A stretch of 24,998 bases of DNA from a virus: positions 1-24,998 of the IMG/VR virus record IMGVR_UViG_3300028025_000469. The stretch is one strand, 5' to 3'. Of this stretch, positions 2,693-23,504 are shown piece by piece. Made by a program: the position numbers and the translations under genes. The first letter of the stretch is position 1, and each line of letters opens with the position of its first letter. The notes beneath the pieces are model-generated. The model was given only the letters and a program-made list of their open reading frames with translations, did no database searches and had not been told where the DNA came from.

Positions 2693-5170
2693 TTATGCTG
2701 GTAAATGTTTTACAGCTTTTGAATCTACGGCAATCTTTCCTTTGCCAATAGACTTTTTACGTCCCGCTTGAATGCGATCCATCATTTTATAAAGTGCCTT
2801 TGCTCCTGCATCTGTCGAGCCATTACCTAGTTCAGATACGATACGTGCAGGAATTACAAACTCATTATTGGCTAAACGTGCTGGCTGGTTGCGTCCAATT
2901 CTAGCTGGGATGCTGTCCGACACACCGTCTCCGGGGCCTTTGAGTAGCTGACCGCCATCAGAGTAGCCGCCAAGAGAACCTAAGCCGCCGCCAGCCAAGG
3001 CAGCTATACCGCCGTCAGCATAGACCTGTGCAGGGTGGAAGTTGAACTTGCCGTTCTTGTAGAAGTTTGATGGTCTAACACTACCGCCACGGGCAAACTT
3101 GTTATGCGAAACAAGGCCATCAGATATGTAGGTGTGCGCTTGGTCGATAGTCAGTTTGACTACATCCCCAGTGCCGATTTGCTCTAGTGAAGCAACAACT
3201 TTGAAACCTTCTGCGTTTACGTTTGGCGCAGTCTCAATAGCGTCGCCTTCTTTTAAGGCATCTACGCGCTTCCATTCCCGGTCAACAAGCAAAAACTTGT
3301 GGGAAAGGGATGTAGTGATTTCGCTGCCATCGGTAAACTTAACGATGCTCTTAGGCTGCTGGATTGTTTCTGCGTAAACAACTTCAAAGTCGCCATACTC
3401 AAAGGTGTCCTCGTGGAGCGTGTGTACAACATCACCGACCTTTAATGAGCCAGCCTGAACTTCAGAACCGTCAGCTAAAAGCACATGTGTTTTGGGGTCT
3501 ACGCAATCGCCGTCACCACCATAACCACCATAACCACCACCTTCGCCAACATCTCCACCAGCGGGACTTTGACCGGAATTACCGCCTGTTGGACTAAGAC
3601 TTCCGTCAGGATTTGATGAATAAGACTGACCGCCAGCCGCTATTGCGTTTGCTGTTGCTTGTGCATTTGCAGCATCTGTCATCGCTTGGTTTGCAGCAGC
3701 TTGGGCACTCGCTGCGGCTCCGGCTTGCTGCCCTTGTGCTGTTGCTGCATCTATACTCATTGGGTTACCAATTGAACCTGCACCTGTTTGTCCGGTAACT
3801 CCATAGCCTCCCGAACCTACGGGAGTTCCGTAGCCAGCACCGCCAAAGGTTGCTGGAGAGCTTGGGGGAGCGCCGAACATTTTCCCTGACGTATAGCCAT
3901 TCAGTGCTGCTTGCTGGGCCGCTGCTGATGCTGCACTAGCGTTTGCTACTGCTTGTGGGTTCATAGCTTGAGCTACTTGTTGTGCAATAAGCCCGCCGGG
4001 TAGTGCGCCACCTAATATATTTCCGTAAGTATCAACCAAGCCATACATTAAACCACCACTCATTGGACTAGAAAGAGGGCTTGAAGGCGCGGAATATCCG
4101 TCTCCTGTTTGTTCTCCGCGATCACCTCCTCCACCCCGATTAGCCGCAGCAAGGCGTTCTTGGTTAGCTTTATCTAGCGCAGAAATCCCAGAATCTGCAT
4201 CCGGAACCCAAATATAGCTGTTTGTAAGAGCATCAAGTATGTATTTCCCACCTTTACGAGTTCCGTAATCCGACGGCATTTCTGGGCCCTTTGTTGTTTT
4301 TTCTGTAAACGTCATTGGATTGGTTGATCCGGGTTTACCCATGAGGTAATCAAATGCTTTTTGTGAGTCTGAAACGGCTCCACCTTCAGCCATACCACGC
4401 GCAGGAACGCCGCCGTATGTTCCAACGGAACGACCTCCCCACTCTGATGTAGGAGTTGCGCTTTCCTGATATATCCGCCCGGTAACAGGATCACGCTTCA
4501 TTGTGCGGATATATCCCGGAGAAGGGTTTGCCTCTGGCCCAGAATCTTTATTGCCAAATGAGTCCATTAAAATTGGCGCTGCAAGCATTGCAAGACTCAT
4601 CTTGTTGTCTTTAAGGAAGTCCATAGGTGCTTTTGCTGCTGCGCTAAAACCTGTGCCAATATCAGGCTTGGATGCGGCTTGAATAGCTGCAACACGCTCT
4701 GTATCTGTCAGGTTTGGCATACTTGTGTCGTATTCTGCGTTTACTGCCCTAGCGTTTACACCAGCACCCATGTTTCCTAAGCTTTGGCTCAATCCTGCTC
4801 CGCCATAAGCACCCATACCAGCCATAATGCCCTTCTCAAGGCTACCAGAGGCCAAACCAGAGATTCCACCAACAGCAAGTGCTGAACCTACTTGGCTTGC
4901 TGCAGCACCCTCAAGACCAAACATACCACCTAACGCCTCACCAGCGCCGGGGAGGAAAGCATCAAGTGCGAATCCTGCGACTGCAGGTAGGATGTTTTCT
5001 AAGAAGCCTGCTTCAGGCAACCCTGTTTCAGGGTTAATGGTTAATGATCCGCCATGCGCCATAGCAAGAGCCTGAAGTCCTTGCACCTCTTTGGGTGACA
5101 TATGTACAAGCGTCCGGTCTGGGCCACGGCCTTGCGCCGCCATTTGGGTTGCTAGATTCTGTAGGCTCAT
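2693..5170 (-). CDS. Large Gly/Ala-rich virion protein with internal intein-like Hint domain
   Basis: The protein has 825 residues. The N-terminal part (about 55-135) is Gly/Ala-rich and hydrophobic, with alternating small residues that could be membrane-active. Residues 345-555 are low-complexity Gly/Ser/Ala/Gln. Residues 556-690 form a Hint (mini-intein) domain, listed separately. The C-terminal part (691-825) has several G-G-x-hydrophobic motifs (ARGGSV, YADGGIA, YSDGGQL) and a well-ordered block beginning GPGDGVSDSIPA (745-756) and including FVIPARIVSELGNGST (771-786) and KMMDRI. I recall that block as recurrent in phage structural proteins of unknown function. If the Hint domain is active, the product would be cleaved or spliced at residue 556 and/or 690. 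The position between gp10-like and ejection-like genes suggests a tail-tip or ejected protein. ATG at 5170 overlaps the previous stop as ATGA. Confidence 0.75.
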   Translation of the reverse strand: MSLQNLATQMAAQGRGPDRTLVHMSPKEVQGLQALAMAHGGSLTINPETGLPEAGFLENILPAVAGFALDAFLPGAGEALGGMFGLEGAAASQVGSALAVGGISGLASGSLEKGIMAGMGAYGGAGLSQSLGNMGAGVNARAVNAEYDTSMPNLTDTERVAAIQAASKPDIGTGFSAAAKAPMDFLKDNKMSLAMLAAPILMDSFGNKDSGPEANPSPGYIRTMKRDPVTGRIYQESATPTSEWGGRSVGTYGGVPARGMAEGGAVSDSQKAFDYLMGKPGSTNPMTFTEKTTKGPEMPSDYGTRKGGKYILDALTNSYIWVPDADSGISALDKANQERLAAANRGGGGDRGEQTGDGYSAPSSPLSSPMSGGLMYGLVDTYGNILGGALPGGLIAQQVAQAMNPQAVANASAASAAAQQAALNGYTSGKMFGAPPSSPATFGGAGYGTPVGSGGYGVTGQTGAGSIGNPMSIDAATAQGQQAGAAASAQAAANQAMTDAANAQATANAIAAGGQSYSSNPDGSLSPTGGNSGQSPAGGDVGEGGGYGGYGGDGDCVDPKTHVLLADGSEVQAGSLKVGDVVHTLHEDTFEYGDFEVVYAETIQQPKSIVKFTDGSEITTSLSHKFLLVDREWKRVDALKEGDAIETAPNVNAEGFKVVASLEQIGTGDVVKLTIDQAHTYISDGLVSHNKFARGGSVRPSNFYKNGKFNFHPAQVYADGGIAALAGGGLGSLGGYSDGGQLLKGPGDGVSDSIPARIGRNQPARLANNEFVIPARIVSELGNGSTDAGAKALYKMMDRIQAGRKKSIGKGKIAVDSKAVKHLPA
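3101..3505 (-). other. Mini-intein / bacterial-intein-like (Hint) domain inside the 825-residue protein
   Basis: The domain is 135 residues (556-690 of the host protein). It starts with Cys (C556, CVDPKTHVLLADG, block A), followed by LKVGDVV. Block B is SLSHKFLL with His624. The C-terminal blocks are HTYISDGLVSHN, ending His689-Asn690. These are the residues used for the N-S acyl shift and Asn cyclisation in Hint domains. It has no homing endonuclease insert. The next residue is Lys691, not the Cys, Ser or Thr needed for canonical splicing, so cleavage at one or both ends is more likely than standard ligation. The preceding residues are a flexible Gly/Tyr/Asp linker. Recognition is from motif order and spacing; activity is inferred. 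Confidence 0.87.
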
Positions 5171-5466
5171 ACTTTTACTTTCAGCACGTTACTGGCGGTT
5201 GTATCGTAGTAGACATCGCCTACACGAAGGTTAGCTAAATCTGCCTCAGTTGGCAAGCTCGGAGTGGCTGTTCCGGGGACAGGGGGTGCGCTCAATGCCG
5301 CAATTATATTGGCTCCGTTGCGTTGTGTGGAGATATTGATTGGGCTGTTATTGTCCAATTGGTTGAAATACAACCGCAGCAGGTTGGTTAGTTGGTCTTG
5401 GTAAACCCGGTCGTATTGGTCTGGTGCACTGGGCAATCTAGGAGCAATTACGTTTTTCTGTGCCAT
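5167..5466 (-). CDS. Small conserved phage protein of unknown function
   Basis: This 99-residue soluble protein sits between the gp10-like gene and the Hint-domain gene, overlapping both (TAATG at its start, ATGA at its end). The N-terminal half looks helical (YDRVYQDQLTNLLRLYFNQLD). The C-terminal half is Pro/Ala-rich and ends in a short beta-like segment containing LRVGDVYYDTTASNVLKVKV, which resembles the small beta-strand repeats found in fibre or capsid decoration proteins. No catalytic motif, membrane segment or signal peptide is seen. Tight coupling to virion genes supports a minor structural role, perhaps as a trimeric accessory to the tail hub, but that is inference. Confidence 0.65.
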   Translation of the reverse strand: MAQKNVIAPRLPSAPDQYDRVYQDQLTNLLRLYFNQLDNNSPINISTQRNGANIIAALSAPPVPGTATPSLPTEADLANLRVGDVYYDTTASNVLKVKV

Positions 5467-7823
5467 TAACCACCCCTGCGACCGTCAGGCCGTACATCAA
5501 TACGTGGCGCACCTAACTGCCACTGGGTACCTAGCGTATTTGAAGTAATCCGCATAGACATCTGCCGACCACGAACCCGGATATTGACTTGCCCAGTAAA
5601 GGTGTCTAGGTCAATTGGGTATGTTTGCGTAGCTGTTACCGGCAATGAGGCTGTAGAGCTTGTACCACCGATTGACAGAGGGTTGTTATACCCAGAACCA
5701 GAGTTCTGCAACGGTAAAAGCTGCATAGTCAGGCTAGGTGTTGTTCCATCTGTAGAGCCACGGAAGGTTAAGTCAGGCAGCATACGCCATACAAACGCCA
5801 TGTTGTGCCCGTCACCAATGTCAAACTGAGATGTTGTGATACTAGTAACAATAGGTACAAGCGTAGCTAAAGTGCCGTCGTCTACACCACTCTCGTGATA
5901 GACCAAATTATTTACATAAGTAGCCGCAACAGGGTAATTCCGCAAAGACGAATCTAACCACGCAGTACGAGCCATACTACCGTAGTACCAAATATCTTCG
6001 CCATAGTTGTACACCACATAGCGGTCAATCGTTGTGCTATTTTCCGTGCAATAGAACCACCAGACTTCATTGAAGCCTTCATTGGTACTGGAAAATATTT
6101 GAGAGAACTGTGTACGGTTAATGTCGTCGTATACAAAGCGCAATAAGTCGCAGCGCAGTGTTTGCACCCGACCGTCATACTTGTAGAACTTATCTTGCCC
6201 CATCCAATACGCAGTGCCGTTGGTGTACGTTGCGGCGTTAAGGCCCACAATAGAGATGTTATCGCTTAGTAGTTGAGAACCCCAAACATAGGGTGGCCCA
6301 AGATACTGCAAGGAATATAGTGCTGAGTCAGTAAACACCAAAATCTCTTGGCGGGCTTGCAGTGCTGTCTGAATAGCAGAACCATGCGACAGGCGCAGGC
6401 TACCAGATTGGTTTGTAATTGCAGGTGTCCAGTTGGTAACGCTCTCTTGGTCAGACCAGCGAATCAGCATGGGGTCGTACACTGTGCTAAGGTAGTCGGT
6501 AGCACCAAAACAGAATGTAAACCGGCTGGCATCTGACACCAAAATTGAGTTTTGGAAGTCTGGAACGTCGCTAGCCCCAGCCAAAGATGACACAAGTACA
6601 GCACGGGGGGAAAGCGTTTGAACCCCCGACCCAGCGGAAGTGGTGTTTATAAAAGTCCCTGCCACATAATTTGCATACGTAGTGGACAGCTTGTAAGTAG
6701 TATCTGTAACGTATGTAACGTAATACACAGTAAACGGCACAAGGGGTAACGGCAACGCCCCTGTGGTCTCAAACATTATCACGGTACCACTTGGTAGGGG
6801 TGTAGTTGTATTGCTAGTTAAAGTAACAACCGCAGGGGTTGCATTAGAGATTGTTACCGTGGTGGGAAACAATACAGTCGGCGCTGTAGTGGCGTTCCAG
6901 TAGTACAAATGCCCCAGTTTTGGGCCAAGTATGAGGTTTTCACCAAAGTTATATTGGCTCCATACATTAAGGGTAGCCCGTGCATCGTATCCTAATCCGC
7001 CCCAGTTTCCACTACTCCATGAATTAGCGCTCCAACCAGCAGCGCTGGTAGAAATAGCCGAGCCGATGTGTAGTATGTACGCTGCATAGACTACGGAACC
7101 ACCCCCTGAACCAGAGGCGTTTGCCACGGTGGTAGCAGTTACTTGGTATGAGCTTGCTACTGGAGTAGCTGTAATAGTGGTAGAGGCGACAGTTTGTGAG
7201 GCGCTAACTGTATAAGTACCAGTTCCTCCGGTTCCTGTACCAAAGGCAGTAATCTTAGTGCCTGCGGTAACTCCTGTGCCAGTAAGCACATGCCCAACAG
7301 CTAAAGCACCACCAGAAAACGCCGTAACGGTTAGGGTAAACCCGGAGATACTCCCCGTGGTAGTTACAGTTGACAGCACTGTGGCTTCGTATTCTCCGTT
7401 AAGAGTTACGTTATTAACTGCTGTAGCCCCTGAAAAAATAACAAAATCGCCTGTTAGGGGTATGTAAGAAGCAGATACTACCGTAACCGAAGACGACCCG
7501 TTAATCGTTGTAAACGGGCTAGGTGAAAGTAGGTAGGTGCCTGATATTGGTGTAATGTCGGCGTATTGACCTGTCTGCTCAATGTAGAACTTTTTATCTG
7601 TGCCTACGCCTACAAGGTTTGCACCGGCTGTAGTAACCCAATTCCACAAAGATCGGCAGAGACCTATAAACGTATTAGCTGAAAGACGAGTCCACCCACC
7701 AATTTTCTCCGGTGTGCCCTGACGAAAACGAACCATCTCAGATTCATAATAGCCACCTTCGTTGGTGTAACGAGTGTTCTCGCGGTTAACACCGGGCTTT
7801 AGGACAACTTTTTGTAAGGGCAT
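5466..7823 (-). CDS. P22 gp10-like tail/packaged-DNA stabilisation protein
   Basis: This 785-residue beta-rich protein has an N-terminus ([20 protein letters not shown], then [18 protein letters not shown]) that I recognise as typical of the phage stabilisation family related to P22 gp10, which forms part of the tail hub below the portal and keeps packaged DNA in. The later parts, such as [17 protein letters not shown] and [17 protein letters not shown], fit the beta-propeller-like body of these proteins. An extra module at residues about 158-220 is almost the same as two copies in the tail fibre at 9942-11402. The C-terminus ends in an [12 protein letters not shown] tail. ATG at 7823 lies 18 bases after the endolysin stop. 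Family assignment is good; the exact position in the particle is inferred. Confidence 0.82.
7164..7352 (-). repeat. Inserted beta module shared with the tail fibre at 9942-11402
   Basis: Residues about 158-220 of the gp10-like protein contain [13 protein letters not shown] followed by [16 protein letters not shown]. The fibre protein at 9942-11402 holds two closely similar copies (about 10644-10835 and 10278-10469). The protein sequence is conserved although many third codon positions differ, so this is a functional protein module under selection rather than a recent DNA copy. Its function is unknown; Gly/Thr-rich beta structure suggests a surface-exposed decoration domain. Confidence 0.8.
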
Positions 7824-9941: not shown

Positions 9942-11402
9942 TTAACGCAGTTCGTACCATGCATTTAATGAAGGAGACCCTACTGTAATAGCAAACGCTA
10001 CCAAGTAAGTGGCCCCAACGGGAACAATAATAGTACCTGCAAAAGGATAACTACCACCCGGTGTGTACCAATTTCCAAAATACACTGATACACCACCATT
10101 CATAGTGCAGTACATAGCCCCGCCACTGGCTCCGTTTGTATACCCAAGAACAGAAAGCTCGATAGGTTTTCCTGTACTATTTGTGTATGTTGTGCCGAGA
10201 GCACGTGAGGCAGATACGTCTGTCCAAGTTTGCCCTACTCCAATTCCTTGGTTAGCCGCAGACTGCCACACTTGAACTGTACCGGTTATGGTTGTGGATG
10301 ATACTGTTTGTGACGCACTTACCGTGTATGTGCCTGTACCGCCTGTGCCTGTACCAAGCGCGGTAATAGTTGTCCCTACGGTAACTCCTGTGCCAGAGAT
10401 GGTCTGACCAATGGAGAGGGTTCCAGAGGTAACCGCAGATACAGTCATTGTTGTGCTACTAATGGCTGCAGTAACCACCGCTACGGACGCAGTAGAAGTA
10501 AGTAAGTTTCCGTCAGTTCCGGGAGCTACTAGGGTTACATTTTCTGTGTCTTTGCCGATAACAACGCTGTTACGGGTAAGTGTTGCTAGCCCTGTCCCGC
10601 CATTAGTCACGGGTAAGGTTGTTGTGGACTGCCATACCTGTGCCGTTCCAGTTATTGTGGTGCTAGACACTGTCTGCGATGCACTTACCGTATATGTTCC
10701 TGTGCCTCCCGTACCTGTTCCAAGGGCAGTGATTGTTGTACCCCCAGTAACTCCTGTACCAGTAAGCACCTGCCCAATAGCAATAGTCCCAGAGGTTACC
10801 GCAGCCACGGTCATTGTTGTAGTGCTGATAGATGCGTTAAATACTGCCACATCAGAAGCAGAAGCAAGAAAGTTTCCAACAGTTCCGGGGGCTACAAAAG
10901 CTACGTTGTCCGTGCCTTTACCGACGACTAGGCTGTTACGGGTAAGAGTTGCTAGCCCTGTGCCACCGCTGGTTACGGGAACAGTGCCAGTCGCAGATGT
11001 AAGTGAAATAGCCTCAAAATCAGAGCCGTTCCAAGCAGCTACGCACTTGTACCCTGCTGGGACAGTGATTCCTGTAGTTGGCCCAACACCTACGAGTTTG
11101 ATGCTCTGTGTGCTGGATGTCTTGTTAATGACAACGTAGGTCTTTGACTGTGCTGGAGCCGTGATTGTCCGGGTAACTGTACCCCCCGCAGTCCATAAAA
11201 TGATTGCCTGCCGCGATTGGTTTGCTACCTGAACGGTGGTGGAAAGCGTTACATCCGCATCAGCACTAAGGGTAGTGGTTCCTGAAACTGCATCGTCAAG
11301 CAAGGATGTAATTGCGTTATTGACGGTATCGCCCCATACGCCAGACAATTCGCCTGTAACGGGGAGGGCTAAACCCAAAAGGGGTGTTGATGCAGTAGTC
11401 AT
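9942..11402 (-). CDS. Tail fibre protein with duplicated 122-residue unit
   Basis: The protein has 486 residues. The N-terminus ([21 protein letters not shown], then [10 protein letters not shown]) is a recurrent phage fibre anchor in my recollection. Residues 141-262 and 263-384 are two copies of one unit, each beginning with the fibre-type sequence [17 protein letters not shown] and ending VWQS. Each unit contains the Gly/Thr beta module also found in the gp10-like protein. The last 100 residues (from [18 protein letters not shown]) form a C-terminal head with aromatic residues and Gly turns, a likely receptor-contacting domain. Binding specificity cannot be read from sequence. ATG at 11402 follows a good AAAGGA, where the previous stop codon touches the binding site. 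Confidence 0.8.
10251..10982 (-). repeat. Two tandem 366-base units in a tail fibre gene
   Basis: Unit one covers 10617-10982 and unit two 10251-10616; each encodes 122 residues in perfect register. Fixed points include [11 protein letters not shown] at both starts, [20 protein letters not shown], and VWQS, all spaced exactly 122 residues apart. The nucleotide copies differ at many synonymous sites, so the duplication is not recent. Units like this give fibres adjustable length and can expand or contract by recombination. Confidence 0.88.
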
Positions 11403-11411
11403 AAGGTTCCT

Positions 11412-12380
11412 TTACTGTAAGTTGTCTATTGGTGTCCAGCCTGCGGCATCTGTTGTATCCACTGCTGTCCAGCCTGCTGTTTCGGGGTTGTTGATTACCG
11501 CCCAGTTCACAGTTTGAGCAGTGCTTAACGTGGCCCAATTTGCTGCTTCAGGGTTGTTGATAAGCGCCCAGTTTGCCGTCTGGTCGTCGATAATTTTAAT
11601 CCAGCCCGCTACCTCTGTATTGTCCAACAAATTGATGTTTTCAGCAATAACGGCTTGGAACGCGGCTTGGACGGCTGGTACGTCTGTAATACTGATATTT
11701 TCAATGACCGTGAAGTAAACCTCAAGGATGGCGGTCTGGGTTGCATCTACCCCAAAATTCTCCGTAACGTCCAAGAAGAACACAGAAATTATGGTGATGG
11801 CTTCAGTAACCGTGATGTCTTCGGTGATGCTGGCTACAAACTGGGCAGCAATGGTTTCGGCTTCCTCTAGCGTAACAGCCTCAGAAATAGCTACGGCAAA
11901 CTGCGCCGTCATAGCCCGTATGTCGTCTACGGCGATTGGTTCTGTAATGCTCTGTAGGAACGCAGACTGCTGGGTGTTGCTATCTTCCACGGTAAACGGT
12001 TCTGCACGGTCATTTAGCATTGCTGTGTAAACGGCTTGGCTGTCTTCGAGGATGATGTCTTCTGTCTGTGCTACGGAAAACTGGGCGGATATTAACGGGG
12101 TATCCGTTAAAACAATGTCTTCCGCTATAGATTGCAGGAAGGTAGATGCCTGTGCGCTGAAGTCGTCCAGCGTGATTGTCTCTGTAACGCTGCCAAAGTA
12201 GTTAGCCCCTGCGTCGTTGATAACGTCTGCTATGCCGATTGGCTCTGTGATGGATTGCAGAAACGCAGATGCTTGGGCGCTAAAGTCGGTTAAGGCAATG
12301 TCTTCAGAGATGGATAGAACGAATGCCGTCCCGCCAAGCGAGGCAAAGGATGATTGGGCAAACGCTGCTATTCCGAACAT
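11412..12380 (-). CDS. All-repeat virion protein (12 x 20 residues, then 6 x 11 residues)
   Basis: The 322-residue protein starts MFGIAAFAQSSFASLGG, an N-terminus I recall from phage structural proteins. From residue 20 it consists of about twelve 20-residue repeats with a leading aromatic or hydrophobic residue and an invariant Glu at 26, 46, 67, 87, 107, 127, 147, 167, 187, 207, 227 and 247; an Asp or Glu follows five to six residues later. From residue 260 it changes to an 11-residue repeat with Trp at 260, 271, 282, 293, 304 and 315 and recurring NNPE. No catalytic motif is seen. The acidic ladder could bind divalent cations. It sits among fibre genes, so a fibre shaft or adaptor is likely. 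Overlaps the previous gene as TAATG. Confidence 0.78.
   Translation of the reverse strand: MFGIAAFAQSSFASLGGTAFVLSISEDIALTDFSAQASAFLQSITEPIGIADVINDAGANYFGSVTETITLDDFSAQASTFLQSIAEDIVLTDTPLISAQFSVAQTEDIILEDSQAVYTAMLNDRAEPFTVEDSNTQQSAFLQSITEPIAVDDIRAMTAQFAVAISEAVTLEEAETIAAQFVASITEDITVTEAITIISVFFLDVTENFGVDATQTAILEVYFTVIENISITDVPAVQAAFQAVIAENINLLDNTEVAGWIKIIDDQTANWALINNPEAANWATLSTAQTVNWAVINNPETAGWTAVDTTDAAGWTPIDNLQ
11415..12323 (-). repeat. Tandem peptide repeats: 60-base period then 33-base period
   Basis: Bases 11604-12323 encode the 20-residue repeats (60-base period, one or two units longer by a residue). Bases 11415-11603 encode the 11-residue Trp repeats (33-base period). The spacing of the key Glu and Trp residues is nearly exact, while other positions vary, which indicates old repeats kept by selection. 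Confidence 0.88.
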
Positions 12381-12955
12381 TATTCGTACAAGATGTTGAT
12401 AGAGCCAGCATCGAAGGTGTCAGTGCCGTTGACTGTGGTGAGGCGAACCCTATCCAACACCCCTGCAAGGTCAATAGTCCCTATTGCGTTAAAAATACTA
12501 TCAGAAGCAGGGCGAGAAAATAAACCTGTAATTGACCACTTGTTGCTACCCAACAGAGTTAGCGTAAAAGCCCCGCCCAATATGGCGGCTGCGTTATCTA
12601 TATTGATGCCAATACCAGATGTGTAAGCTGCAATTGTTACCGCTGCCCCGTTTGTAAAGCGAGCACCAGACCCTAGATACCCGGTACTAGTAATACTTCC
12701 ACTTCCCAGTTGTAATATCCAATTCGACGACCCACTAGTACTTACCCCATTTAGTATTACAGTAACCCGTTTCACCCATGATGGAATTCCAGTGAAGTTA
12801 ATAGCTGTACCGCTAGTAGACGCAACAGCAGTGCCAGACGTAATCACGCTTGCGCCCATTACTGGAGTCCCGTTAATTGTTGGGCTGGAAAGGGTTGGGC
12901 TGGTTATTGTTTGCCCAGAGGCTATCAGTCCCCCTGCTACTTGTGTTAAAGCCAT
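12380..12955 (-). CDS. Tail fibre tip-like protein, paralogue A
   Basis: This 191-residue beta-rich protein has a short N-terminal helix/strand part ([20 protein letters not shown]), then SGTAVASTSGTAINFTGIP and SWVKRVTVILNGVST. It ends with DRVRLTTVNGTDTFDAGSIN and ILYE. It is a clear paralogue of the protein at 15108-15653: both share the SGTAVASTSGT entry and the NGTDTFDAG C-terminus, but differ in the middle. I recognise the family as frequent in uncultured tailed phages beside fibre genes. Conserved ends with a variable middle suggest a receptor-binding head with exchangeable loops. Its start ATG at 12955 shares a base with the stop of the 49-residue gene upstream. Confidence 0.75.
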   Translation of the reverse strand: MALTQVAGGLIASGQTITSPTLSSPTINGTPVMGASVITSGTAVASTSGTAINFTGIPSWVKRVTVILNGVSTSGSSNWILQLGSGSITSTGYLGSGARFTNGAAVTIAAYTSGIGINIDNAAAILGGAFTLTLLGSNKWSITGLFSRPASDSIFNAIGTIDLAGVLDRVRLTTVNGTDTFDAGSINILYE

Positions 12956-15678: not shown

Positions 15679-16038
15679 TTAGGTGTTGACCGTAGGTTTG
15701 GCAAAGGATAACGGGTCTACGCCTTTGGGAATGGTGTCTGGGTCAATGATGTCCTCAACTTTATCCCCAAAACGCAGTGCATGTATGCAGTAAACAACCG
15801 TGCCGTCTATCAACGCTGTAAATTCGTGGACTTTGTCCTTCTTAATGTAGATCATGCAGGGGGCTGAGAACGCTGATTCCTGCCCGTCAACTATGCACTT
15901 GACACCGCCGTATGCCAAAAGTGACAGGTGGTCAAATGGGTGGGTATGCCCAACCTCAATGTCCCCGGCATGTTCAAAGTACATCTGCCGTGAGTACAGG
16001 TTTGCTACGCAGCCAAGAGATATTTTTGGGGGGTTCAT
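15679..16038 (-). CDS. Small cupin-fold protein
   Basis: This 119-residue, single-domain cupin has the first motif G-H-T-H-P-F-D-H (30-37; metal ligands probably H31, H33 and D36 or H37) and a G-containing strand after it (AYGGVKCIVDG). The second motif includes VHEF (70-73), with H71 as likely last ligand. Cupins of this size bind a metal and may be enzymes, sugar isomerase-like proteins or sensors; nothing here identifies a substrate. It overlaps by ATGA with an oxygenase-like gene that itself overlaps an aspartyl hydroxylase-like gene, making a three-gene set of double-stranded beta-helix proteins within the fibre region. Confidence 0.8.
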   Translation of the reverse strand: MNPPKISLGCVANLYSRQMYFEHAGDIEVGHTHPFDHLSLLAYGGVKCIVDGQESAFSAPCMIYIKKDKVHEFTALIDGTVVYCIHALRFGDKVEDIIDPDTIPKGVDPLSFAKPTVNT

Positions 16039-16520
16039 TTTTTGGTTATTTCCGTTACTTGTTCCATAGGTACTAAAGCGCCGTAAGAGAAAATTACCCG
16101 CTCCCCACCAAACATAGGGGTAGAGCCGTGTTGCTCAAGGCTGGCTAAAACAATCCACAGGTCGCCTATCTCAACCTCAATGCTTTCTTCGCCAAACAAC
16201 GGCATACCGCCAGTCGTAGGTTTACGTAACATAGTGTTACAGCGTACATGTGCAAAACCCTCTGGGGCAGTATCCTGATGCATGTGCGTGTGTACGCCAT
16301 CAATGTAGTGGTTGCCAGTAAGTATCTTAAATACAGGTTCTACGCTGTGGGGTTTAAGACCAAAGGCAGCGAACGCATCTTCAAAACCATCAGCCTTTTC
16401 CCGCATGGAATACCTACGACCAAAGCCGTTAGGGTGCCAAATATCTGTTTCCAGCGCCGTCTCTATGTGTCTGCCAGTAGCCCAGCCTTTGCGGACTCGC
16501 CCAGCAGCTAGGTCAATCAC
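16035..16520 (-). CDS. 2OG-Fe(II) oxygenase-like protein
   Basis: This 161-residue protein has HTHMHQD (77-83), giving an H-x-D pair (H81, D83), a distal His in LEQHGSTP (H131), and Arg in GGERVIFSYG (R141). That spacing fits the iron- and 2-oxoglutarate-binding double-stranded beta-helix. It is small for the superfamily and its N-terminal part (1-60) has no clear relatives to me. Substrate unknown; phage members of this group are common near tail genes in aquatic phages. Start is GTG at 16520, chosen because GTGA overlaps the previous stop exactly. The reaction would be hydroxylation with release of succinate and CO2. Confidence 0.75.
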   Translation of the reverse strand: MIDLAAGRVRKGWATGRHIETALETDIWHPNGFGRRYSMREKADGFEDAFAAFGLKPHSVEPVFKILTGNHYIDGVHTHMHQDTAPEGFAHVRCNTMLRKPTTGGMPLFGEESIEVEIGDLWIVLASLEQHGSTPMFGGERVIFSYGALVPMEQVTEITKK

Positions 16521-17053
16521 AGCCTATCCCCATAGACATTGATAATTAGGTGTACTCGGTCTTCAGTAGTACTTTGGTTCCACGCAGAATGCCAACGCAC
16601 ATTATCTATTTCCACCGCCTCTCCTAGAGGCATTTCTATTGTTTCGTAGTCAATCTCGTAGCAAGCCAGCGGGTTAGTGACTAGTGGTATGTGGACACGG
16701 TGTATGTCTTCAAGGAATGGCGTTATATCTGCATGTCTATTTACATGAGAGCTTGGTTTAAGCCTTGCTAGCAATGCCACATAGTTTGTTACATCATAGT
16801 AGATACGCAGCCAGTCAATGATCGGTGTAAGCACGGACTCATATTTGCCAAACAGCGGCTGATTCTGTATATCCTCTGTAAGATATGACTGAGCATGTCG
16901 AAATACCATCGAGTCATATTGCCCTTCGTGCGAAATCATCGACTTACGCCAATCAAGAACAAGCCAGTCTAGTTCCTCAATGGTGTTTATGAAGTTCTGT
17001 ATTAGAACATCTGGAACTTGCCCAAGAATAATGTGTGTTGTATCAAGTTTCAT
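16517..17053 (-). CDS. Aspartyl/asparaginyl beta-hydroxylase-like 2OG oxygenase
   Basis: The protein has 178 residues from ATG at 17053, chosen over an ATG 33 bases upstream because it gives the usual ATGA overlap. The core reads LLARLKPSSHVNRHADITP (94-112), with H107-x-D109 as iron ligands, followed by HRVHIPL (118-124), a distal His in RWHSAWN (H155), and EDRVHLIINV with R166 as the likely 2-oxoglutarate-binding Arg. This order is that of the Asp/Asn beta-hydroxylase family, whose members hydroxylate Asp/Asn side chains or free amino acids. The phage target is unknown. Adjacent fibre proteins are plausible substrates but that is speculation. Confidence 0.83.
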   Translation of the reverse strand: MKLDTTHIILGQVPDVLIQNFINTIEELDWLVLDWRKSMISHEGQYDSMVFRHAQSYLTEDIQNQPLFGKYESVLTPIIDWLRIYYDVTNYVALLARLKPSSHVNRHADITPFLEDIHRVHIPLVTNPLACYEIDYETIEMPLGEAVEIDNVRWHSAWNQSTTEDRVHLIINVYGDRL

Positions 17054-17355
17054 AGTGTTACAGATGGGATATAACCCCATGTCCAAGACCGTGTGTCTAA
17101 AACCGCCATTGGGTGCGGCTTGGGTTCGTAAAAAACATCATTCTCTGCATCGTATATAAAACCAACTCCAGCAAAGTTTCCTCTTAACGCCGCGCCACCG
17201 TCTGGCTGATTGTCAACACCGTAATGCACACCCATACGTGTGTTGTATGAAGTTTGTATCCATAGGTCTTTATCTGGTAGTGTGTCAATAAAGTCCTGCT
17301 CGGCAACAATAACCGTGTCTACTACGCCGTCAACAACCCGTGCAAAATGGCTCAT
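17050..17355 (-). CDS. Conserved small fibre-region protein
   Basis: This 101-residue protein has MSHFARVVDGVVDTVIVAEQ at its N-terminus, WIQTSYNTRMGVHYG in the middle, and YDAENDVFYEPKPHP near its end. I recognise these blocks from small proteins encoded near the tail fibre genes of cyanophages and other aquatic phages; the same blocks also occur as a domain in larger proteins. No function is established as far as I know. It is soluble, acidic and aromatic-rich, with no enzyme motif. It is tied by ATGA overlaps to the Gly-rich fibre before and the aspartyl hydroxylase-like gene after, so it may be a fibre accessory. Confidence 0.78.
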   Translation of the reverse strand: MSHFARVVDGVVDTVIVAEQDFIDTLPDKDLWIQTSYNTRMGVHYGVDNQPDGGAALRGNFAGVGFIYDAENDVFYEPKPHPMAVLDTRSWTWGYIPSVTL

Positions 17356-20651: not shown

Positions 20652-21062
20652 ATTAGAACTGCGAATTAACGCAGAAGTGGCTGTATTGGCTGGCATTGTG
20701 ATGGTGAACGTACCGGTAGATGTCTTGTCTGACCCGAAATCCAATACCGCAATGGACTTATTTCCTTGGCTGGCATTGTAAATCAAGGCACACCGTGCTG
20801 TCACTGATGTTGACCAAGAAACATTAGCCCAGTTAACGTACACCGTATAGCCAGAGGTGTTAAGCGCAACGCCTGTCATAACCTGACCACCTGCTGTATA
20901 GCCTGACGCTACAACCTCATTTGAGGTGCTATACACCGTGGTATCTTCGTTAAGATTAGCATCTGCCGTGTACAGGGCGATCTTGATTGTGTCCGTCAGC
21001 AGGTTATGCACCGCTTGGTACACCTCTGCTTTAAATGAAGTAGTCTGTGTTTGGACGATCAT
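20649..21062 (-). CDS. Small virion structural protein
   Basis: This 137-residue protein contains SFKAEVYQAVHNLLTDTIKI and ALYTADANLNEDTTVYSTSN near the N-terminus, then SGYTAGGQVMTGVAL, WANVSWSTSVTARCALIYNA and VLDFGSDKTSTGTFTITMPA. The pattern KIALYT near the start and ALIYN with VLDFG near the end is a frequent family in phages that precedes fibre genes; function not established. It has an all-beta C-terminal part and no membrane segment. It starts at ATG 21062, sharing one base with the stop of the adaptor-like gene, and ends with TAG that forms part of the next gene's TAGGAG. Confidence 0.75.
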   Translation of the reverse strand: MIVQTQTTSFKAEVYQAVHNLLTDTIKIALYTADANLNEDTTVYSTSNEVVASGYTAGGQVMTGVALNTSGYTVYVNWANVSWSTSVTARCALIYNASQGNKSIAVLDFGSDKTSTGTFTITMPANTATSALIRSSN

Positions 21063-21742
21063 TACATGACCCCATTATTCTGGGGTAAAGGCGCAGCGCG
21101 GTACTGACCACTACGATACGCATCGCTACGCTCAAGGCCATCACCCAGACGTTTAGCAAGCATTAACGCTTCCTTGTACTTGCCATCGTACAGTGCAACC
21201 ATGTCGGCTTCGCCCTTCATGTAGGTATAGGCTTCTACCAACGCGCCGTAAAGCAGCACAGAGTCAAAGTTGTCACCTAACCAAGTGGTTAACGCAGTGG
21301 TAATGGACTCTGGGTAGTAGTAGTAGTGAAGCTCTGCAGAATACGTAGCATCCGGCGTTGGGCCAAGAATGAACGAAAGCTCATTGCTGATTGCGGAGCT
21401 AGTAACTGTTGGGCCAAACAAGGCGTAGTACTTAGGGATGGCTGTGTCGGTCGGCTGTGGATACGCTTCACGAATGAAGTTGACGTCCTTGTTAAGTAAA
21501 AACGTGTACACCCCAGCCGCATCAATTACCGCTAGAGAATAAGACGAAAGGTAGTCGTTGGGGCACGACAGGTACTTATTGTTAACTGTAACTGACCCCG
21601 TCACGTTTTTCCGCAACGAGGGGAACTGAACGGTGTTGTAAACGCGCTGCTCTGCCTGCTGAATGAACGTATTCATGTCAGTAGTGCTGAACGTGTTCTC
21701 CGTGTAATCGGAGATTGCAGTAACTAGAGCAGCGTAGTTCAT
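21062..21742 (-). CDS. Head-tail adaptor-like protein (tail tubular / SU10-type adaptor)
   Basis: This 226-residue, mostly helical protein begins MNYAALVTAISDYTENTFST and MNTFIQQAEQRVYNTVQFPS, followed by LRKNVTGSVTVNNKYLSCPND. An opening with short helices, an AE-x-R element and a beta insertion is what I know from podoviral adaptor or tail tubular proteins that attach below the portal. The C-terminal half has YYYYPESITTALTTWLGDNF, then helices with LLYGALVEAYTYMKGE and KYKEALMLAKRLGD. Its place just after the gp4-like protein and before the fibre genes fits a head-tail connector. Family-level assignment from memory; moderate certainty. Confidence 0.75.
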   Translation of the reverse strand: MNYAALVTAISDYTENTFSTTDMNTFIQQAEQRVYNTVQFPSLRKNVTGSVTVNNKYLSCPNDYLSSYSLAVIDAAGVYTFLLNKDVNFIREAYPQPTDTAIPKYYALFGPTVTSSAISNELSFILGPTPDATYSAELHYYYYPESITTALTTWLGDNFDSVLLYGALVEAYTYMKGEADMVALYDGKYKEALMLAKRLGDGLERSDAYRSGQYRAAPLPQNNGVM

Positions 21743-22184: not shown

Positions 22185-22190
22185 CTCCTA
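22185..22190 (-). promoter_or_regulatory. Ribosome binding site fused to a stop codon (TAGGAG)
   Basis: The TAG stop of the zinc-ribbon gene is part of TAGGAG, which is spaced correctly for ATG at 22178. It supports that start and translational coupling between the two genes. Confidence 0.8.
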
Positions 22191-22571
22191 TGAAACGCTT
22201 ACTGTACCAACACTTGTAGTCGCAACCAAATAATTTGGGGTTAACACTACATCAAAAAAACTTGATCCACCAACAGGGTTCCATCCCCACTGGATGTCCC
22301 TAGATCCACCACTATTGTATCCGTCAGTCATCTGACCGGCGGTAAAATATGTGGTATCTCTACGAGGATTCCTTAAAGCTTGAGGATCATCTACAGGATA
22401 CATTCCCAACTGAAGCTGTGGCTGATCTGGATCCCAGCAACTCTTACAGACCAAAAGGTCATAGACCTTAGTCTTAATAATCTCTTTTTTCAGGTCAACA
22501 AGTTTAAACTGCGCTCCGCATCTGTCGCAGATCGCAATTGCCTTCTTACCTGAAGCAAACCTATTAGCCAT
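22188..22571 (-). CDS. Zinc-ribbon virion-region protein
   Basis: This 127-residue protein begins MANRFASGKKAIAICDRCGA. C15-x-x-C18 and C42-x-x-C45 (VCKSCW) make a four-Cys zinc ribbon with a 23-residue loop. The following part (QLQLGMYPVDDPQALRNPR, then IQWGWNPVGG and DVVLTPNYLVATTSVG) ends in beta strands. I recognise this as a frequent companion of gp4-like tail accessory genes in uncultured podovirus-like phages; no function has been shown to my knowledge. The ribbon could bind nucleic acid or simply stabilise a small virion protein. It starts immediately after the gp4-like stop codon. Confidence 0.82.
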   Translation of the reverse strand: MANRFASGKKAIAICDRCGAQFKLVDLKKEIIKTKVYDLLVCKSCWDPDQPQLQLGMYPVDDPQALRNPRRDTTYFTAGQMTDGYNSGGSRDIQWGWNPVGGSSFFDVVLTPNYLVATTSVGTVSVS

Positions 22572-23504
22572 TTAGATGTAAGTCTGTCGAGGAACAAACC
22601 GCAGAGCGGCTGTTTCACGGTCTTCTGTAGAAGCTAGTTCCCAAGCTTCGTCATACTGCATTTTTAAGATCTCTAGGCGCTGTGCCCCGTTGGGCACTTT
22701 TAACGCTAAATAATAGGCAAGCCCTGCAACCATGCAAGGCAAGAACCGGAATGGGACATCCATAGTGTTTACACCGCTGCCTGCGTCATCAACCCGGCGC
22801 ATACGGTAGTAAACAAGCTGATAAGTTGTTGTATTGTCTGGGGTAGGCCAGACTGTTACGGCTGGTGGTCTAGTCCAATAGACTGGAGTTGCTACAGCAT
22901 GTGTAGCTGCTACGGTGTCCTGCTGTGCCCGACCACAAAAGTTCAGAGTTCCGGCTGTACCACCTGTGGCGGTTACCGAGCTATAGCTTATGATTTCATT
23001 GTCTAGCTTTACAAACCCTGCCGATGGCAGCGGGTTTATGTTACTGATGTAGATTGTCGAATCTGTTGCAGCAACTGCTGTAGTTACAGTGGAGTCAACC
23101 AAATTGATCTGACCGTCCATCCTTTGCACCCAAATCTGTATCGGGCGAGCCTGTTGGAGCTTGTTTGGGATGGTTGCATAGGTAGAAACACTAATACGGG
23201 TGATCGTTAGATCCGCCTGAGTCGCCACGGAGTTAGCGCCAGTGCGTATAAGGTGCTCCAAAAGGTCTACGGTATCGTTGGGTAGCGCATACGTGCTAAC
23301 GCCGGGAATTAGCGTGATCGTGCCTTGTTCAAACGTCCACATGTTGACACCACGATTAGACCAGTCTGCAAATAACAGGTTTAGGCTGCGTCGGGCTGTT
23401 TTCAGGTCGTAACCAGAACGGAGTTCAGAACCGGCACGTTCAAATGCTTCCTCAACAATTTCTGTGAGTTCTAGATTGAATGATGTGGTTCCAGAGGTTG
23501 CCAT
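22572..23504 (-). CDS. P22 gp4-like tail accessory / DNA stabilisation protein with inserted module
   Basis: The protein has 310 residues. ELTEIVEEAFERAGSE (12-27), YDLKTARRSLNLLFADWSNR (32-51) and ALPNDTVDLLEHLIR (73-87) match the helical gp4-like head-tail accessory proteins that bind the portal and begin tail assembly. The C-terminal VPFRFLPCMVAGLAYYLALK and DEAWELASTEDRE continue the fold. Between about 136 and 209 is an extra beta module (IYISNINPLPSAGFVKLDNE, then CGRAQQDT), resembling a recurring surface module of phage virion proteins. ATG at 23504 has AAGGA ahead of it. The family is recognised from sequence; the structural role follows from P22. Confidence 0.82.
   Translation of the reverse strand: MATSGTTSFNLELTEIVEEAFERAGSELRSGYDLKTARRSLNLLFADWSNRGVNMWTFEQGTITLIPGVSTYALPNDTVDLLEHLIRTGANSVATQADLTITRISVSTYATIPNKLQQARPIQIWVQRMDGQINLVDSTVTTAVAATDSTIYISNINPLPSAGFVKLDNEIISYSSVTATGGTAGTLNFCGRAQQDTVAATHAVATPVYWTRPPAVTVWPTPDNTTTYQLVYYRMRRVDDAGSGVNTMDVPFRFLPCMVAGLAYYLALKVPNGAQRLEILKMQYDEAWELASTEDRETAALRFVPRQTYI

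Follow-up and report, generated by a model that had tools for sequence, protein, structure and literature searches.

What does a viral protein do that is assembled from two different, sharply periodic repeats? The question was raised by an open reading frame in a 24,998-base fragment of DNA from an uncultured virus (IMG/VR record IMGVR_UViG_3300028025_000469, positions 1 to 24,998), which was analyzed at its full length and is referred to below as the window. The preliminary description had placed the frame correctly, and its strand is minus; the start codon overlaps by 1 base the stop of the upstream gene. The encoded protein, called here the repeat protein, consists of the following parts.

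11412 to 12380, minus strand: repeat protein, 322 residues, ATG start (from open reading frame analysis and about 147 distinct homologues)
12321 to 12380, minus strand: N-terminal tag, residues 1 to 20 (MFGIAAFAQSSFASLGGTAF), common to proteins with unrelated middles
11604 to 12323, minus strand: shaft, residues 20 to 259, twelve 20-residue units (from periodicity and homologue unit counts)
11415 to 11603, minus strand: Trp tail, residues 260 to 322, six 11-residue units, W-x-x-I-x-x-x-Q-T-x-x (from Trp periodicity)

The preliminary description had noted Glu at nearly exact 20-residue steps, each followed shortly by an acidic residue, and Trp at exact 11-residue steps, and these patterns stand. 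Twelve Glu residues occupy positions 26, 46, 67, 87, 107, 127, 147, 167, 187, 207, 227, and 247, with one step of 21 residues and the rest of 20, and the residue at +6 is acidic in 11 of the 12 units (9 Asp, 2 Glu). Six Trp residues occupy positions 260, 271, 282, 293, 304, and 315. In comparison with 2,000 composition-preserving shuffles, 12 Glu-Glu pairs were present at lag 20 for 1.4 expected (z = 9.7, reached in 0 of 2,000 shuffles) and Trp recurred at lag 11 with z = 8.1 (0 of 2,000); identity over all residues gave z = 9.1 at lag 20 and z = 8.6 at lag 22. The shaft unit has the consensus F-L-Q-S-I-T-E-N-I-T-L-A-D-S-x-T-I-x-A-A/Q. The protein is strongly acidic, with a pI of 4.05, a net charge of about -43, and 3 Lys plus Arg residues.

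The window genes form a late operon on the minus strand, in which the repeat gene is surrounded by genes for tail components.

5466 to 7823, minus strand: g5, tail nozzle or stabilization protein (podovirus structure matches)
9942 to 11402, minus strand: g10, tail-fibre protein, downstream neighbour (PHROG 38233, tail fiber protein, E = 2e-24)
12380 to 12955, minus strand: g12, small tail-fibre-like protein, upstream neighbour (PHROG 29482, unknown function, E = 4e-10)
21062 to 21742, minus strand: g25, tail tube A or adaptor-like protein, conserved upstream neighbour (PHROG 2941 and 10775)
22572 to 23504: SU10-adaptor-like protein

The g5 product matched two solved podovirus chains, 9nwi_Y at E = 5e-12, whose deposited name is "Capsid and scaffold protein," and 8zkk_O at E = 2e-4, which is nozzle gp16, and its homologues in isolates are named "stabilization protein." These matches indicate that the source is a short-tailed phage with the repeat gene in its tail-fibre cluster, of which g5 is the downstream limit. 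The homologue of g25 in Methylophilales phage Venkman is annotated "tail tube A," and the operon also contains a series of fibre-like proteins, a holin, and an M15 endolysin. The neighbouring genes are kept around most homologues of the repeat protein (g10 is present in 88 fetched loci), and the repeat gene lies between the adaptor-like and nozzle genes both in the window and in most long loci. The source virus is an uncultured short-tailed freshwater phage; comparison of the window with cultured phages at the DNA level revealed no close relative.

Elsewhere in the window, in the region after the nozzle gene, a gene at 2693 to 5170 (minus strand) encodes an 825-residue protein that matched a Hint/intein-like splicing domain below the curated cut-off (PF14890, E = 2e-6), possibly an intein or an autoprocessing domain. 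A segment of about 65 residues inserted in both the nozzle protein (5466 to 7823) and g10 (9942 to 11402, two copies) points to the copying of a small domain from one structural gene to another. Small genes of the fibre cluster at 15679 to 17086 (minus strand) resemble, by eye, cupin and 2OG-Fe(II) oxygenase-type proteins; such genes are annotated in the fibre clusters of phages DSL-LC04 and HTVC023P.

Scans of IMG/VR contigs, in which complete relatives with the same three parts were counted, yielded about 147 distinct homologues in uncultured phage contigs. The Glu and Trp spacing is kept in 63 homologues, and the succession of a shaft and a different Trp-repeat end, already recognized in the preliminary description, is conserved for both repeat systems. 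Over 732 shaft units of the 63 homologues, Glu is present in 99%, Asp at +6 in 84%, Phe at -6 in 81%, Ser at -3 in 64%, and Asn at +1 in 52%, and all 211 of the 211 Trp-Trp steps are exactly 11. Comparison with three close homologues gave a dN/dS ratio of about 0.22 overall (0.20 to 0.24 in the shaft), indicating that the open reading frame is under protein-level selection. As far as alignments can tell, the conservation of Glu, Asp, and Phe together with the low dN/dS ratio are the marks of a folded, selected protein. The combination had seemed unlike any characterized protein, and Pfam and PHROGs indeed gave no match for the window protein. A PHROGs search with all 63 members returned nothing consistent, one member alone matching a tail-fibre PHROG (E = 1e-4), and tblastn of two shaft members against cultured phages gave no match. 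A first scan of genome contigs for relatives found none; a second found three metagenome-bin contigs, which we read as phage contigs binned with their hosts.

How such a shaft folds was addressed by structure prediction and by comparison with known repeat families. The preliminary description had suggested a solenoid shaft with a ladder of acidic side chains that may bind calcium or magnesium. Taken as a structured, monomeric, metal-binding rod, this model fits the exact 20-residue period, the 99% invariant Glu, and the Asp at +6 (84%). Monomeric solenoids are usually predicted well. However, AlphaFold2 monomer runs on the whole protein (63-homologue alignment, mean pLDDT 39) and on five units (78 ungapped five-unit windows, pLDDT 52) did not give a repeat fold despite good alignments, which leaves the solenoid unsupported. 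RTX, leucine-rich repeat (LRR), pentapeptide, and other repeat families also gave no match, and we regard the solenoid rod as highly improbable. Neither confidently predicted small domains or disorder nor unconserved spacing was seen; the spacing is strongly conserved.

Individual repeat families were rejected on the following grounds. The nonapeptide GGxGxDxUx of RTX-type calcium beta-rolls is absent from the sequence, with no match in Pfam. For a pentapeptide-repeat beta-helix, the match to SV2C was not significant (E = 0.095) and the strongest lags of the shaft are 20, 60, and 40 rather than 5. The FNIP/FGxxFN LRR protein Crov588 (PDB 6nyr; PMC9525666) gave a profile E value of 2e-17 summed over repeats, the best single stretch reaching only 0.001. 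Crov588 shares with each shaft unit the octamer F-x-Q-x-I-T-E-N, to which the alignment is confined, but differs by its 22-residue unit and its LxxLxFG strand motif, which the shaft lacks (LxxLxF/LxL is absent from the shaft consensus); AlphaFold2 predicts no LRR here. The match was thus attributed to coincidence, a shared octamer being repeated many times, and the LRR fold was rejected.

Low AlphaFold2 confidence would equally fit a disordered linker. The repeats might then form a mostly disordered or flexible spacer, kept for length, function being confined to the tag and the Trp tail; the low pLDDT, the strong acidity, and the replacement of shafts by unrelated sequence (see below) would all be compatible with this. 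Conservation argues against disorder: each unit has a 99% invariant Glu and conserved Phe and hydrophobic positions, the dN/dS ratio is about 0.2 within the shaft, and the units have position-specific identities. A disordered chain, moreover, gives no reason for the preference for four units described below, and we give the spacer very little credence. The failure of the monomer to fold despite strong conservation fits an obligate oligomer, which the shaft, judging from these predictions, is likely to be. Hydrophobicity analysis revealed amphipathicity of a helix-like kind over residues +9 to 0, about half of each unit, with weak alternation.

The N-terminal tag follows the pattern MFGIAAFAQxPFASLAG. 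In the 63 homologues, M1 and G3 are invariant and F2, F7, Q9, F12, A13, and L15 are conserved in at least 90%; residues 1 to 20 show zero amino-acid changes relative to the three close homologues. Proteins recovered by a DNA search for the start MFGIAAF share the tag but have middles of at least four kinds, all encoded in the same genomic region. Type A, to which the window protein belongs, combines the Glu-ladder 20-residue shaft with the 11-residue Trp tail; in type B, TGVxASGAVGTV units about 20 residues long precede the 11-residue Trp tail seen in type A; type C combines GNATVTANA units with Trp units of 10 residues; and the tag is also found on forms of 81 to 120 residues without a long repeat (short single units). 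All tag forms follow the tail tube A-like genes and precede the nozzle gene wherever it is visible. Because a constant tag and a Trp-repeat tail flank unrelated middles, the shafts are exchangeable cassettes, and the constant tag on changing shafts is probably best read as a docking peptide. Two of the short proteins (L158 and L217, 120 residues each) carry after the tag a charged domain (GGHFGFDEKKRDAQWAKDQK...) that is probably helical.

Cultured phages contain related proteins. Venkman EXVC282S gp51 (QLF88126.1; type C; L236, 10001 to 10717) resembles the window protein in its N-terminal tag (MYGLSAFSQSPYSALG), its repeats of about 20 residues, and its Trp tail, and in this phage the gene lies between tail-fibre genes and the stabilization/nozzle gene. 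Unlike the window protein, gp51 has a GNATVTA-type repeat, Trp units of 10 rather than 11 residues, and no Glu ladder. It is annotated as "putative E3 ubiquitin-protein ligase HERC6," which looks spurious since sequence and position are those of a repeat protein of a tail-fibre cluster. Distant TGV-type repeats are found in cultured Roseobacter phages and in phage DSL-LC04. Among the former, CRP-207 gp50 and CRP-345 gp55 (HMO-2011 type; PMC9038755), both named "hypothetical protein," have TGV/SVSATG-type repeats and lie in a tail gene cluster; CRP-207 gp50 shares the N-terminal tag, but both differ from the window protein by another repeat, the lack of a Trp tail, and a different C terminus. 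In Roseobacter phage CRP-901, gp53 (L145, 5677 to 6621) has TGVAGTGAIGT repeats fused to the C terminus of another protein, its N terminus resembling the window gene at 22188 to 22571; a TGV-type repeat is thus also attached to another virion gene. Pelagibacter phage HTVC023P has the surrounding core genes in common with the window, but no tag homologue was recognized among its tail genes that were read, and the tag is thus not universal.

Considering these data together, we think that the repeat protein is probably a virion fibre, either a tail fibre or a whisker, from a short-tailed phage, made of three interchangeable modules with a shaft built in four-unit blocks. The gene lies in a tail morphogenesis cluster beside other fibres and encodes a conserved N-terminal attachment part followed by exchangeable distal parts; no fibre-family profile in PHROG or Pfam matched the window protein. 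The tag would dock the protein on the tail, the shaft would form an elongated homo-oligomer, most likely a trimer, and the Trp tail would be the distal end, contacting the cell surface or capping the oligomer. The middle regions of such a fibre may be swapped by recombination.

P22 gp26 and modular tail fibres likewise combine a conserved N-terminal attachment part with a variable shaft and tip. No sequence similarity to them was found, and the repeat protein differs from them in shaft, tip, and four-unit rule. A tail needle like P22 gp26, with the tag as a plug in the nozzle channel while shaft and Trp tip extend from the center of the tail, would be consistent with a short-tailed phage that has a nozzle homologue, with a short, invariant, hydrophobic N-terminal tag preceding variable distal parts, with a single copy per genome where seen, and with the helix-like amphipathicity of half of each unit. 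P22-type needles are coiled coils, however, and the shaft has no clear heptad pattern. No match to a needle family was obtained, the position in the gene order shifts around fibre gene g22, and the protein is unrecognized among the tail genes read of HTVC023P, a phage with related core tail genes. A needle is therefore improbable in our estimation, and the fibre remains the preferred reading.

The preliminary description had asked whether copy number varies among homologues, and it does: 8, 12, 16, or 20 units, plus exceptions. Units were counted between the first Glu and the first Trp, and parsing artefacts were manually corrected: L079 and L093 have internal Trp, the tail spacing of L318 and L261 is irregular, L316 has Gln instead of Glu in its first unit, L436 has a frameshift, and L367 has an upstream extension. 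Type A proteins have 8 (6 proteins), 12 (116), 16 (20), or 20 units (1), amounting to multiples of four in 143 of 147. The exceptions have 6, 11, 15, and 23 units, one protein each; the 6-unit exception is a distant metagenome-bin protein, and the 6- and 20-unit proteins come from an inclusive recount. The longest type A forms are L444 (609 residues), with 23 shaft units and 12 Trp units, and L442 (481 residues), with 20 shaft units; L444 may have had 24 units, one being lost to assembly collapse of near-identical units.

Unit changes were reconstructed by parsimony on a tree from which the middle units had been left out; support is weak at several of its deep forks. The tree requires 19 changes, 12 of them involving the 16-unit state and 4 involving the 8-unit state; well-supported branches force at least 7 and at least 2 of these, respectively. 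The reconstructed change was of 4 or 8 units in 16 of the 19 cases, and the forced events alone gave 9 of 12 against an expectation of one in four (P = 4e-4). Type B shafts served as a control. Their unit numbers are 7, 8, 9, 10, 11, 12, 14, 16, 17, 19, 20, 25, and 28, and changes by a multiple of four account for about 1 in 20 (Fisher test versus type A, 4e-7).

The multiples of four could be an evolutionary accident, in which ancestral middles of 8, 12, and 16 units were swapped by recombination with no structural rule. Most proteins have 12 units by descent, and phage tail genes recombine often. Against this, the extra block of 16-unit proteins lies after unit 2, 5, 6 to 8, or 11, depending on the lineage, and in L109 it is a recent self-copy, identical at 60 of 80 positions to the following four units. 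Near-identical single units in L261 still add up to 16, and no four-unit rule is seen for the TGV shaft that occupies the same slot. We consider an accident unlikely.

Mutational bias was also weighed. Units have position-specific identities, the highest similarities being those of unit 4 with 7 and unit 7 with 8, and no four-unit super-repeat was detected in the sequence, identity between units at lag 4 being no higher than at lags 1, 3, or 7. Since similarity peaks at lags other than four, slippage would favour steps of 1 or 3, and the sequences suggest that steps of four are most likely kept by selection rather than by mutation bias. In 12-unit proteins, the rare 21-residue steps are nearly confined to the positions after units 2 and 6, a distance of four units, which is suggestive but may also reflect shared ancestry.

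A structural rule would account for these observations if the fibre shaft could work only in increments of 80 residues, or four 20-residue units, perhaps because these make up a structural block or a symmetry-equivalent turn, so that length changes would be kept only in steps of four. With a twist of 30 degrees per unit in a trimer, for instance, four units would move a chain to its neighbour's place. We put the chances at about even that this shaft represents a new kind of viral fibre repeat, with four units as an indivisible structural quantum, a rule from which unrelated shafts on the same tag are exempt.

The Trp tail also varies in length, with 2, 3, 4, 6, or 12 units among 145 type A homologues. 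A five-unit tail was found in 0 of 206 proteins (145 type A and 61 type B), and a change from 4 to 6 units was inferred about 17 times. The tail has a mild 22-residue super-period (lag-2 identity of 0.39 versus 0.33), which may explain gains of two units. Choline-binding and other Trp repeat domains gave no match to a curated profile.

Literature searches on repeat-shaft fibres turned up no account of this family. More generally, no description of this repeat family, of shaft exchange on a constant tag, or of the four-unit rule was found in the libraries and papers searched, which does not in itself prove novelty.

Modular phage fibres are known, and the exchange of receptor-binding tips among them is familiar. 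Here, it is the shaft that is swapped, with a fixed tag on one side and a related Trp tail on the other, and the swapping spans a large group of uncultured freshwater phages without a Pfam or PHROGs profile. The strong preference for multiples of four units, to which the unconstrained TGV shaft of the same slot gives an internal control, provides a rare case of a structural quantum predicted from a sequence survey alone. If the prediction is true, natural selection counts the repeats of this shaft in fours and leaves other shafts on the same tag free of the rule, and the family would offer protein rods whose length is set in defined increments.
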